A stretch of DNA of 64,000 bases from Sunxiuqinia indica (lineage in GTDB: Bacteria; Bacteroidota; Bacteroidia; Bacteroidales; Prolixibacteraceae), in NCBI RefSeq assembly GCF_009847015.1, contig NZ_WVEM01000006.1:1-64000 (forward strand). Direction: 5' to 3'. Made by a program: the position numbers and the translations under genes. This document shows, piece after piece, positions 5,206-9,404 of this stretch. Numbering within the stretch: the stretch's first letter is position 1; the number at the start of each line of letters is the position of its first letter. A model generated the notes under the pieces. It saw nothing but the letters and a program-made list of their open reading frames with translations, ran no database searches and had not been told where the DNA came from.

Positions 5206-5868
5206 ATGCACATCGTTTATGAATCTGATATAGAATTTTTCCAGAAGATGCTACTTCACTGGTATGCTGAAAATGGACGGAGCTTTCCTTGGAGGAATAA
5301 ATCGGCGTCAAACTATGTCCTTATTATTTCTGAAGTTTTTTTGCAACGCACAAAAGCAGAAACCGTTGCTCGTTTTCTTCCATCCTTTCTAAAAAAATAT
5401 CCTTCGTGGAAGCAGTTGGGAGAGGCAAATGAAGAAGAACTACAAGAAGTGCTAAGACCTATCGGATTGTATAAACAGCGCGGAACCCGACTATACCAAT
5501 TGGCCCAAGAGTTAAAGAAAAAGAAAGGCCGATTCCCAAAAAAACGTAATCAAGTGGAAGATTTAGCGATGATGGGGCAGTATATTACGAATGCCTTTGA
5601 ACTGTATGTATTGAAAAAGAAAGCTCCACTGCTTGATGTAAACATGGCCCGGTTACTTGAGCGCTTCTTTGGTGAGCGAAAAATGGCTGATATCCGGCAT
5701 GACCCATATCTTCAAACACTTGCTTACCGGGTTGTGGATACTGAGAAATCTAGAGAAATAAACTGGGCAATTTTAGACTTTGGTGCACTAGTCTGTAGGA
5801 AAATCGCGCCGAAGTGCTATATTTGCTCATTATCAAAAAAATGTAAATACTATAACCAAAATGGTTGA
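5206..5868 (+). CDS. MIG-type T/G mismatch DNA glycosylase (HhH-GPD, [4Fe-4S])
   Basis: The 220-aa HhH-GPD protein is of the EndoIII/MutY superfamily but lacks the MutY C-terminal domain. The helix-hairpin-helix region carries MMGQYITNAF. The position that is Lys in EndoIII and Ser in MutY is Tyr126, followed by the catalytic Asp144 in LLDVNMARLL. Tyr plus Asp is the signature of MIG-type thymine glycosylases such as Mig.MthI. The iron-sulphur loop is C197-X6-C204-X2-C207-X5-C213. Such enzymes remove T from T/G mismatches made by deamination of 5-methylcytosine. The stop overlaps the start of the next gene by 8 nt, so both are co-transcribed, and a 5mC methyltransferase faces them. The role as the repair arm of this R-M locus is therefore strongly suggested. 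The alternative is a diverged adenine glycosylase. Confidence 0.88.
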   Translation: MHIVYESDIEFFQKMLLHWYAENGRSFPWRNKSASNYVLIISEVFLQRTKAETVARFLPSFLKKYPSWKQLGEANEEELQEVLRPIGLYKQRGTRLYQLAQELKKKKGRFPKKRNQVEDLAMMGQYITNAFELYVLKKKAPLLDVNMARLLERFFGERKMADIRHDPYLQTLAYRVVDTEKSREINWAILDFGALVCRKIAPKCYICSLSKKCKYYNQNG

Positions 5869-6802
5869 CAACATCTGTGAACATCTCAGAAAGCTCTCTG
5901 TTGAGAGCTGTTTTGAACTTTCGGCGTTTAGAAATGGGTGGAGCACATGGAAGATAGAAATCCAAAATATTCTTGGGCCTTCCTTCGACGAGTCTGACAT
6001 TATTAATCTCGGGGATCATCTGTCCTCAATTTTTGGAACGACTGGAAAGGCAGGAAGAAGTCAAAGCGAGGTATCGGGTGGCGGATACGGATGGGAAGGG
6101 TTGATATGCTGGTACTTAAATCTCAATATGATCGGAAGTCGAGCAGTTGCAGTACGAAAAATATCAGCGTTACCTAGCTCTCTGAGAGATTCTATTTCTG
6201 TAAATTATGGAAACTTCCGAAGCAACACAGAGTCTGATATTACTGTTGTAATTTTCCCAGCTGTGAACGAATTCACCTCGGATAAAAACAATCTAACCAT
6301 AACCAATAGAGGAGGGAGATCAATCCCCTTAACAGTTCGTAATAAGTACAACATAAAACCCATCTTGGAAAGACTCGCAGAAATTCATTTTGATCGTTTT
6401 GAGCTGGGGATAATACAATGCAAAACTAACTGGAACGACAACGCGCAGATACCAATGCTATGGAGCATGATATATGAAGCGAACTCATTTAGTAACCGTG
6501 CAATTTCGGTTGGAAGAAATGGATATAGCATAAGTGATTTAAGACACTTCACATACTCTTTTTGTACAGTTCCAACAAACAGTCTAGATAACTACACGCA
6601 GAACTCAACCTCAGTAAATAGAGTAAGAAATTTGACTGGAGGAAATTACTGGGGGAACATATCCAGTAATGGAATAGCCTCCTCCGTTAAAGAAATATTC
6701 AATAATAATTTCAAAAGTGCGTTTTCTCCTAATCAACGAACTACACTGAGAAACTCGTTGTCTGAAATAGCAAGCGAACTAAGTTATTTCGACATTAGTT
6801 AA
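5861..6802 (+). CDS. Probable type II restriction endonuclease
   Basis: The 313-aa product is cytoplasmic with no membrane segment. Its position, overlapping the glycosylase upstream by 8 nt and the methyltransferase tail downstream by 8 nt on the opposite strand, is what an R-M endonuclease would have. A plausible PD-(D/E)xK core is visible: E124-S-D126 in NTESDITVVIF, then ELGIIQCKTNWNDNAQIPML, where Q186-C-K188 would supply the xK half and flanking beta strands. An earlier GYGWEGLICWYLN helix may hold a supporting Glu (E79). I cannot name the recognition site. Call rests on motif plus context; sequence search against REBASE would settle it. Confidence 0.75.
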   Translation: MVDNICEHLRKLSVESCFELSAFRNGWSTWKIEIQNILGPSFDESDIINLGDHLSSIFGTTGKAGRSQSEVSGGGYGWEGLICWYLNLNMIGSRAVAVRKISALPSSLRDSISVNYGNFRSNTESDITVVIFPAVNEFTSDKNNLTITNRGGRSIPLTVRNKYNIKPILERLAEIHFDRFELGIIQCKTNWNDNAQIPMLWSMIYEANSFSNRAISVGRNGYSISDLRHFTYSFCTVPTNSLDNYTQNSTSVNRVRNLTGGNYWGNISSNGIASSVKEIFNNNFKSAFSPNQRTTLRNSLSEIASELSYFDIS

Positions 6803-8981
6803 TTTTCTTTAGAATTTCCATTGCGATGGCTCTTGCCATCAATGGAGGTACGGCATTTCCTACGAGAGTATATTGTGGTACTTCGTCTTTTCTTTTATTT
6901 CCTCCTGTTGAGCGCTTTCCTTGGAAAACAAAACTATCATCAAAAGATTGAAGTCTTGCCATTTCCCGAACAGTAAGTGCTCTGGGATTTGAATAATGAA
7001 TGTAATCGTCTGGCATAGTCATGATTGTAGGACTTTGTTTCGTTGGATCAAGTACATTATAATTTCTCTTCTTTGATGTTAACTTTTTTTCGTTTAGCTC
7101 CATTTTTGCTAAATCGTAATCTCCAGCTTTTCTAATCACATCCAATCGAGTCACTACTAAATCCGACTGTTTACTTGCCTGGTGATTATGGAGTTCTGCG
7201 AACTGAAAATTCCCATTTTTGAATTCATTGAAATTACCAACATACACAGGTTGTTTTACTTTAATATCTGGTCTTATTCGACCTTCTTTACTCCATTCAT
7301 AAAATGTTTTACCTTCTTCCTCACTTTTTCTTCCTCCAATCTCTCTTTTGAAAATGGGAAAACCATTCAGTCTCTTTGATTTTGAGTTATACTTTATTGC
7401 CTTATCTCCTGCATTAAGAAAATCCAAATCATATAAGGCTTCGCCTACACCAACTTTCACATCTTTGCCAACTGAATACGGAATTTCACGAATTAGCTTT
7501 TGATCGTTTCGACATCCAATAAACAAGACACGCTCCCTATTCTGTGGCACCCCATAATTGGAAGAGTTTGCAACATAAGGTTCATCAATCTGATACAATC
7601 TAAGCTTATTCAGCAGTGAATCGAACTCATCGCCCAATCCAATCAATTTTGCTTCATCTCTAATTTTTTCAAAACAATCATCTAGTGAATACGAAAGAAC
7701 ATCAAAACCAAAAGTCAATTTGTCGATCTCTTCAAACTTGTGATTTTCAGCCAATTCACGTATTGCGTCTTTAATTTCAGCAATTATTGAATCAACACTA
7801 ATAAAATCCAAAAAGGAATTAAATTTCTCAGCAAACCTATCATTATCGACATAACAAGCATCTTTGATCTTAACAATATCTCGCTTGGCCTTTTCTAGTT
7901 CATTCCGCTTCTGAAGCAAATATATTCCATGCTTCACAGTCAGAATCCTTTTATCTGTCTTGTTCTTCTGATAGTCAAAATAAGTGCTAGTTGACTTAAC
8001 AAATAATTGCTCTAGAAAATTTAAATAATTAGAAAGTTCTATTGCTTGGTCATCAAGGCTTTTACTCTCTATTTTCGTTATCCACAACAAACATTCAAGT
8101 TCAAAAATGTTATTGGGTAATTTATTCTTCAGTTTATTCACGAAACTAACCAACTTGGGATACTCTCTATGATCAATTATCGATCTAATTTCTTTCAAAA
8201 TCATGTCCTTGACTTTACCTCCTTCTTTCGTGAGAATCCCTTTAACATTTTCCATTACAAAATACTTGGGCTTCAATTGTGTAATAACTTTCAAGTAATG
8301 AGAGAATAAATCATCCTTTTTATCGAACTTCTTACGCTTCCCCGCAAGGCTAAAACTTTGGCATGGTGGCCCCCCACAAACGACATCAACTCTTTTATCT
8401 TTTAACTTGGCCAACAGGTTTTCAATAAAATCAGGCTCTGTAATATCTTGCCTTATAAACTCAGTACCTAACCCTAATTGATAATTATAGCGAACACGAT
8501 GTGTTAAATCACAGTTCTCATTAATATCACTAGCCAACAAAAAATCAAACACATTATTGTGATAATCTGCCTGTAAAAAACCCTCACTAAATCCTCCAGC
8601 ACCTGCAAAAAGATCAATAAAGGTAAAAAAGGTTTTATATAGCTTTGGATCTGATTCAACAATGTCCAGTTCTTTATCATCCTTGTGCTTATTAACAAAG
8701 CTCTTTAAATCTTGCTGGATATGCTCTTTCGTTACCGATGAAAACTCATGCTGCTCAATCAATTCCTCTGCCCGATATCGAAGCGACGAAAGAAAAGCAT
8801 TTTTTCGCACAGAGTCTTTGTCGTAAACCACAGCTTGTTTTTGCTTATTCCAGTGTTTTGGATCAACTTTGTAACCTGTACCAACTTTAATGGTATTTTT
8901 CTTGCAATATATTTTTAAGTGAATGTTACAAGCCCCACTCTTATCGGCTTTGTCATCGAGATAGTAATTAACTGTTGCCAT
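6795..8981 (-). CDS. DNA (cytosine-5-)methyltransferase with integrase arm-like N-terminal domain
   Basis: With an ATG at 8981 the protein has 728 residues; an upstream ATG at 9038 would add 19 basic residues. C5-methylase motifs are all present: I DLFAGAGGF (about 123-131), IV GGPPCQSFSLAG with catalytic Cys207, VI FVMENVKGIL, VIII PQNRERVLFIG, IX LTVREMARLQSFD and X YTLVGNAVPPLMARAIA. About 215 extra helical residues sit between motifs VI and VIII. The first ~95 residues (MATVNYYLDDKADKSG..., then KVGTGYKVDPKHWNKQKQAV) resemble the arm-type DNA-binding domain of Bacteroidota tyrosine recombinases rather than any methylase part. The gene converges on the endonuclease, with an 8-nt overlap at the 3' ends. 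It protects host DNA by methylation in this R-M system. Confidence 0.92.
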   Translation of the reverse strand: MATVNYYLDDKADKSGACNIHLKIYCKKNTIKVGTGYKVDPKHWNKQKQAVVYDKDSVRKNAFLSSLRYRAEELIEQHEFSSVTKEHIQQDLKSFVNKHKDDKELDIVESDPKLYKTFFTFIDLFAGAGGFSEGFLQADYHNNVFDFLLASDINENCDLTHRVRYNYQLGLGTEFIRQDITEPDFIENLLAKLKDKRVDVVCGGPPCQSFSLAGKRKKFDKKDDLFSHYLKVITQLKPKYFVMENVKGILTKEGGKVKDMILKEIRSIIDHREYPKLVSFVNKLKNKLPNNIFELECLLWITKIESKSLDDQAIELSNYLNFLEQLFVKSTSTYFDYQKNKTDKRILTVKHGIYLLQKRNELEKAKRDIVKIKDACYVDNDRFAEKFNSFLDFISVDSIIAEIKDAIRELAENHKFEEIDKLTFGFDVLSYSLDDCFEKIRDEAKLIGLGDEFDSLLNKLRLYQIDEPYVANSSNYGVPQNRERVLFIGCRNDQKLIREIPYSVGKDVKVGVGEALYDLDFLNAGDKAIKYNSKSKRLNGFPIFKREIGGRKSEEEGKTFYEWSKEGRIRPDIKVKQPVYVGNFNEFKNGNFQFAELHNHQASKQSDLVVTRLDVIRKAGDYDLAKMELNEKKLTSKKRNYNVLDPTKQSPTIMTMPDDYIHYSNPRALTVREMARLQSFDDSFVFQGKRSTGGNKRKDEVPQYTLVGNAVPPLMARAIAMEILKKIN

Positions 8982-8984
8982 TTT

Positions 8985-9026
8985 ATTACGGATAAAATTA
9001 CGAATACGGACAAATTTACGGACAAG
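8985..9026 (-). promoter_or_regulatory. Direct repeats ahead of the methyltransferase (possible operator)
   Basis: On the plus strand TACGGATAA (8987-8995), TACGGACAA (9005-9013) and TACGGACAA (9017-9025) recur at 18- and 12-bp steps, just upstream of the preferred ATG at 8981. Because the methyltransferase begins with an arm-type DNA-binding domain, these repeats could be its binding sites for autoregulation. This is inference. If translation starts instead at 9038, the repeats would be inside the coding region. Confidence 0.45.
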
Positions 9027-9404
9027 AAATGAGAACATTGCTAATCATATCTATTTTTTCAAAGGAAGTTTTCAACAATCAAACATTAAACTCAATTAGT
9101 TCCCATAGTATCAAATGATTTATCCCAAGAAATATCTAATCTGCAACAATGCTTCTCGTTTTGGCATCGTGCACATCCATGCTTATAAAGATAGCGAAGT
9201 TTTTTACGGGCGGGTTGCAGGATGCTGTTATTCGTTGGCTTGGCCTGCCTTTCCGCACCGGCTTGCGTCTGATGCTAGTGCTCTTGCTCTCAGTTAATTC
9301 AGACTAATTCCGAATAACATAAAAAAATACAAGAGGCCGCATCAAACGATCTGGCTTTTCCTATATTTGAACGCACAAATGTTTAACCAACAACAACTGA
9401 TGAG
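9027..9404. other. Intergenic stretch; promoter-like box near the end
   Basis: A 60-codon plus-strand frame here looks spurious. TATATTTG at 9362-9369 fits the Bacteroidota -7 box TAnnTTTG, 36 bp before the ATG at 9405, although no good -33 TTTG lies at the right distance. No other structure recognised. Confidence 0.4.

Follow-up and report, generated by a model that had tools for sequence, protein, structure and literature searches.

A C5-cytosine methyltransferase with an integrase-type arm domain and a conserved operator-like element over its predicted promoter in Bacteroidota

In a 64,000-nucleotide stretch of the Sunxiuqinia indica contig NZ_WVEM01000006.1, analysed here at its full length and called the window, a C5-cytosine DNA methyltransferase begins with an arm domain homologous to those of Bacteroidota tyrosine recombinases, and the direct repeats ahead of its start codon belong to a conserved operator-like element. 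We consider it probable that the arm domain binds half-sites on its own promoter and represses the methyltransferase gene. With somewhat less confidence, we favor a wider reading in which these loci form a Bacteroidota-wide restriction-modification class run by methyltransferases with a recombinase arm as repressor, where up to four molecules, lined up along four direct half-sites that cover the -7 box and the transcript start, would meter the dose, and where the module would have stayed in place while at least three endonuclease families partnered with it. Comparison of sequences establishes the homology of the domain, the conservation of the element, its exclusivity in the scanned genomes and its non-coding nature; binding by the arm and repression by that binding are what we infer, for a promoter predicted from sequence.

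The methyltransferase has the PF00145 domain and the catalytic PCQ motif of a C5 DNA methyltransferase, and GGPPCQS(FS) together with the other C5 motifs is invariant among five aligned homologs. The preliminary description had likened the N-terminus to an integrase arm, a proposal that stood or fell with a match to the Arm-DNA-bind_5 profile, and this match was obtained: with residues counted from the ATG at 8981, PF17293 scores 34.9 bits against a cut-off of 22.6 (E 2.3e-8), in a whole-protein Pfam scan it scores 29.3 bits alongside PF00145, and the arm profile is matched at E ≤ 0.01 in all 60 methyltransferases scanned. The AlphaFold2 model of the arm (mean pLDDT 83.8) has the order strand-strand-strand-helix-helix, both helices being long. 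A Pfam scan extended up to an E value of 1 gave no PF00589 recombinase catalytic domain in the methyltransferase, and the 12 Pfam families reported across 60 members include no helix-turn-helix family. We place the start codon at 8981 because the homologs align from the equivalent ATG and 45 of 83 loci have an in-frame stop ahead of it; an in-frame ATG at 9038 would, in this genome, place the repeats inside the coding frame.

The usual job of the arm domains of Bacteroidota tyrosine recombinases is to bind short direct repeats. A profile built from the methyltransferase arms alone leads to eight further places in the same genome, the best of them (E 9.8e-10) in a tyrosine recombinase; the genome holds 14 PF17293 domains, the window's included, and the four other arm open reading frames scanned are ordinary tyrosine recombinases composed of PF17293, the SAM-like PF13102 and the Phage_integrase domain PF00589. 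Among the methyltransferases arm identity falls to 24%, with H21 (57/60), Q30 (57/60), K32 (59/60) and K38 (60/60) conserved, whereas column 32 holds E in seven of the nine distinct integrase-type arms of the same genome that were aligned. Judging from strand alternation, residues 21, 30 and 32 would be placed on the open face of the sheet, which is the DNA-contacting surface of integrase arms.

Table 1. Coordinates of the methyltransferase locus and its upstream element in the window
Feature	Position	Strand	Remark
HhH-GPD/MutY-like DNA glycosylase	5206..5868	+	PF00730 E 2.5e-14; TIGR01084 mutY below cut-off; matched by a PADLOC model for type II nicking endonucleases
Probable partner restriction endonuclease, convergent to the methyltransferase gene	5861..6802	+	no Pfam family reaches its cut-off
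728-aa C5-cytosine DNA methyltransferase with an arm domain at its N-terminus	6795..8981	-	PF00145 E 3.4e-55; start codon 8981
Arm-DNA-bind_5 domain (methyltransferase residues 10-80)	8742..8954	-	PF17293; AlphaFold2 model
Operator-like element of two 18-bp units in tandem, with GTCCGT-N6-GTCCGT in each	8988..9023	-	core kept at 85/85 loci
Half-site 4, ATCCGT	8988..8993	-	
Half-site 3, ATTCGT	9000..9005	-	degenerate in the window
Half-site 2, GTCCGT	9006..9011	-	
Predicted sigma-A -7 box TAAATTTG, lying between half-sites 1 and 2 and in contact with both	9011..9018	-	fits TAnnTTTG
Half-site 1, GTCCGT	9018..9023	-	

The word TACGGAYAA occurs at 8987-8995, 9005-9013 and 9017-9025 and once elsewhere in the 64 kb, four copies against 0.72 expected and at most three in 100 shuffles, and when the local 400 bp were shuffled by mononucleotide 20000 times, three copies never fell inside 60 bp. 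The three TACGGA(T/C)AA repeats reported earlier ahead of the ATG are thus real and clustered, yet they form part of a larger element of four half-sites, in which GTCCGT recurs on the minus strand at offsets 0, 12, 18 and 30.

Four other full-length relatives, 52-54% identical, came from a search of 395 Bacteroidota genomes, and in each the ATG is preceded by the same core words. Their alignment, A1, was used to scan one genome per species, and the 80 best of the 372 relatives that it yielded were taken; all of these match over the full length, arm included (L193 to residue 717, L200 from residue 2), and all 80 carry the core element directly upstream with 0-2 mismatches of 19. Together with the window, L036, L037, L231 and L232 they make up 85 loci encoding 84 distinct proteins, 50-99% identical, since the proteins of L208 and L232 are the same; L038, L039, L229 and L230 were kept out, their contigs being equal in length to ones already in the 80. 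The relatives come from Flavobacteriales, Bacteroidales, Chitinophagaceae, Sphingobacteriia, Saprospiraceae, Spirosomataceae, Flammeovirga and others. The fusion and the upstream words, for which a search of other genomes had been proposed, are found at all 85 loci, the core lying just before the ATG with at most two mismatches of 18 (16-18 matched; placing the core at its best consensus match biases the count towards conservation), and the best match in 1700 shuffled upstreams was 13 of 18. Rather than an unrelated N-terminus with no repeats upstream, the relatives have both the arm and the repeats.

Of 83 upstream regions, 47 have the 18-bp core GTCCGTAAATTTGTCCGT without any change, 26 have it with one mismatch and 10 with two, and half-sites with at most one mismatch number four in 66 regions, three in 10 and two in 7; L198 was mis-anchored on its second unit and really has four half-sites, leaving six loci with a single unit. 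Between proteins that are 50-60% identical (1367 pairs, compared without L198 and the loci with short upstreams), identity amounts to 95% in the core, 77% in the second unit and 34% in the 28 bp that flank the element upstream. The element is not coding: its first base lies 21-51 bp from the ATG at distances that are mixed modulo 3 (40/29/14 of 83 loci), and the in-frame stops mentioned above fall in the same stretch.

The element is tied to this one gene type. In the 395 phylum genomes, the loose pattern TGTCCGTAN{2,6}TGTCCG gave 44 matches against about 90 for its reversed control and is noise, as it matches less often than the control; only the subset with the spacer AAWT carries signal, and its five members are exactly the five arm-methyltransferases. 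The tighter TGTCCGTANNTTTGTCCG, applied to 395 genomes from the order of G029, gave five matches and none for the control, all before arm-methyltransferases and two of them already counted, so that in both 395-genome Bacteroidota scans the spacer-specific element is exclusive to arm-methyltransferase upstreams. Of the 39 matches without AAWT, 25 loci were searched, for arm domains only. One of these 25, L041, the locus of a chance-level repeat match, holds an arm-type open reading frame of 209 aa.

Of 60 Bacteroidia genomes, 40 have arm domains, which with few exceptions sit in frames of roughly 350-490 aa or in shorter pieces; the only two arm frames above 500 aa, in the window and in G767, are both arm-methyltransferases with the element. 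At 16 distant C5 methyltransferase loci (L020-L035) no arm was detected by the A2 profile and no element was found, with 5-7 mismatches to the 19-mer. Two protein scans of viral contigs gave no full-length relative and one 33% match, L225, without the arm, and of the 75 viral stretches that fit the core pattern none has the methyltransferase by tblastn. Among the 20 matches listed each for plasmid and phage records (1901 and 190 more exist), two phage rows, H35 and H36, start within the arm region; the A2 profile detects no arm in H35, H36 or L225, and their core match reaches at most 13 of 19. A site shared with integrases was also considered and rejected: in the genome's 13 remaining arm-domain loci, each of about 3.2 kb, the best matches have 6-7 mismatches of 19.

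The position of the element relative to the promoter goes beyond the preliminary description. In the available portion of PMC9723704, TAnnTTTG is the flavobacterial sigma-A -7 box, located at -12 to -5. This motif occurs at the same offset inside the element in 77 of 83 loci, and half-sites 1 and 2, which flank it, are the pair retained at every locus. The -33 consensus is a TTG about 19 bp before TAnnTTTG; at 19 or 20 bp before the motif, TTG is present in 32 and TAGG in 26 of the 83 loci. In the window the transcript start is predicted near 9006, and the element would span about -17 to +19 if the -7 box call is right. A protein on half-sites 1-2 should exclude RNA polymerase. The operator is thus predicted to overlap the promoter of its own gene, and this overlap lends further weight to the autoregulation suggested earlier, a reading that the comparative data support. 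Promoter control through CCNGG methylation was set aside on the near-absence of CCNGG upstream, with one occurrence in 12424 bases of the 83 regions against 7.8 expected from mononucleotide shuffles, a count that is indicative only, as CCNGG is the presumed target. The scarcity fits avoidance of the system's own presumed target.

The endonuclease partner varies between loci, which leaves the methyltransferase as the one constant gene and favors it as the reader of the element. Proteins 46-54% identical to the probable endonuclease of the window occupy the same convergent place in 7 of the 80 loci, and one further locus has a partial copy, eight in all. Its conserved ESDI...QCKTNWND reads by eye, with no profile match, like a PD-(D/E)XK motif; a search with its fold model (pLDDT 74.7) gave no usable match, and the gene perhaps represents an undescribed type II endonuclease family. 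A MvaI/BcnI-family endonuclease lies downstream in 68 of the 80 loci (one of them, L219, weak and partial), L177 has an EcoRII-C family endonuclease at 7230-8081, convergent with the arm-methyltransferase, as a third partner type, and three contigs (L153, L193, L213) end before any partner could show. MvaI/BcnI and EcoRII-C enzymes cut CCWGG/CCSGG-type sites, which suggests a CCWGG or CCNGG target for the methyltransferase. An element at the endonuclease promoter was rejected: GTCCG, TCCGTA and CCGTAA do not occur in the 250 bp before 5206, nor in the 200 bp before four of five window-type endonuclease genes, the fifth, L157, having one CCGTAA.

Further features of these loci were recorded alongside. 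In L036 the MvaI/BcnI-like gene at 6796-7638 is shortened to 280 aa, against 392-394 in L037 and L039, and half of the profile is matched. Two genes lie between methyltransferase and endonuclease at L151:2624-4832 and L037:9685-11893; the L151 pair matches PADLOC DzbA and DzbB, the L037 pair starts with very similar residues, and in L152, L162, L186 and L194 the endonuclease likewise begins about 2.2 kb downstream. The glycosylase gene of the window overlaps the endonuclease gene and has relatives at 6 of 80 arm-methyltransferase loci; its product probably repairs T:G mismatches arising from methylcytosine deamination. The GC content of the locus is 34-39% at 6-9 kb and 41-52% over the rest of the first 14 kb, and this AT-richness fits acquired DNA. 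A small protein of 125 aa, encoded at 2208-2585, resembles by eye the DUF559 nuclease-like family.

Dual-function methyltransferase repressors described in the available portions of PMC12707154 and PMC3874152 have an N-terminal helix-turn-helix, and M.SsoII, according to the available text of PMC6100179, represses its own gene and has a 15-bp palindrome as its binding site. As far as the same partial sources describe them, M.SsoII and M.Ecl18kI resemble the present protein in uniting a C5 methyltransferase with an N-terminal DNA-binding domain in one chain, here by homology, and in having an operator unique to the system on the methyltransferase promoter, which in our case is predicted. Their domain is a helix-turn-helix, whereas the one here is an integrase arm modeled as three strands and two helices, and the operator of M.SsoII is a palindrome between the M and R genes, in contrast to direct repeats with the R gene downstream or convergent. 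M.SsoII methylates CCNGG, and the partners found here belong to CCWGG/CCSGG-type families. Both operators contain GTCC and an AAATT run, a coincidence that we attribute to chance. With neither a helix-turn-helix nor a palindrome, the present loci are best described as a variant sharing the SsoII/Ecl18kI logic rather than as a member of that group.

M.EcoRII, in the accessible part of PMC12707154, likewise has a repressor domain fused to a C5 methyltransferase and represses its own gene, as we propose here, but its repression needs methylated substrate sites, whereas the present upstreams are nearly without CCNGG, the presumed target. The tyrosine recombinases with Arm-DNA-bind_5 share the homologous N-terminal domain; the protein described here differs in lacking the SAM-like and catalytic recombinase domains, in the methyltransferase joined to the arm and in the repeats being on a promoter. 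C (controller) proteins also exert promoter-bound control of a restriction-modification locus, but they are separate helix-turn-helix proteins. The literature listings searched, with most subscription journals outside their scope, showed no description of an arm-domain methyltransferase.

These comparisons can be combined into a mechanism. The protein would be a C5 methyltransferase with two functions, belonging to a type II restriction-modification locus; its N-terminal arm, homologous to those of Bacteroidota tyrosine recombinases, would have been retained as a sequence-specific DNA-binding module and would bind the direct GTCCGT half-sites in the core promoter of the methyltransferase gene itself, with half-sites 1 and 2 bracketing the -7 box and half-sites 3 and 4 covering the transcript start. 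Upon entry into a new cell, when the methyltransferase is scarce, the promoter would be open; as the protein accumulates, the sites would fill, RNA polymerase would be shut out and the level of methyltransferase would be capped, and at most loci, where the endonuclease gene lies directly behind, the endonuclease would probably be capped as well. Several observations count against this explanation: half-sites 3 and 4 are both degenerate in the window, six loci have a single unit, the window has the -7 box and no TTG at the -33 position, its arm has T at residue 30 in place of the common Q, and certain relatives have arms below the curated PF17293 cut-off (L038, 15.4 against 22.6). We also count against it that the element was not found at the genome's other 13 arm-domain loci and that integrase arm sites normally serve recombination.

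Four alternatives can be set against self-repression by the arm. The element could be the operator of some other protein, be it a regulator of the host or an unlinked factor, with the arm serving otherwise, for example in guiding the methyltransferase. The contact between arm and element is itself deduced from sequence, which speaks for such an arrangement, yet unlike a host regulon the spacer-specific element occurs only before the methyltransferase gene in the two 395-genome scans, and the methyltransferase stays constant as species and partners change; we therefore regard this alternative as unlikely. About equally improbable is that the arm binds and activates, or activates at low dose and represses at high dose in the manner of C proteins. 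Two 18-bp units would permit two occupancy states, and the full set of four half-sites is widespread (66 of 83 loci, and L198 by eye). However, the six single-unit loci keep, by eye, the unit with TAnnTTTG, which is a repressor position, and an exact GTCCGT farther upstream occurs in only one of 85 loci, L198, where it is that locus's own first unit.

The proximity of the core to the ATG, and a frame that in the window is open to the ATG at 9038, would also be in line with a function of the conserved stretch in the mRNA leader, as a translation control or RNA element, or with an N-terminal peptide. The leaders of four loci, all that were folded, fold no better than shuffles (z from -0.81 to 0.65), half-site 1 would sit upstream of the predicted transcript start, and the mixed frame and the in-frame stops rule out the repeats as a peptide, so that we give this possibility very little weight. 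Finally, the homology of the arm to integrases raises the question of whether arm and repeats are relics of an integrase module, the remnant of a recombination site; relics would not remain 95% identical across proteins that are 50-60% identical, and the other arm-domain loci of the genome have no such element, which makes this reading scarcely credible.

Self-repression through the arm would have several consequences. A recombinase arm reading direct repeats would, if it binds as proposed, be a new variant form of methyltransferase self-regulation. Beside the fused helix-turn-helix covered in the available part of a 2025 review (PMC12707154), it would give methyltransferases a second and unrelated means of reading their own promoters, and it would place an integrase arm domain in use outside recombination. 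The loci would offer a ready-made pair of protein and DNA, in 84 natural protein variants, from which the specificity of arm domains could be read, and the safe establishment of Bacteroidota restriction loci in a new host would become testable.
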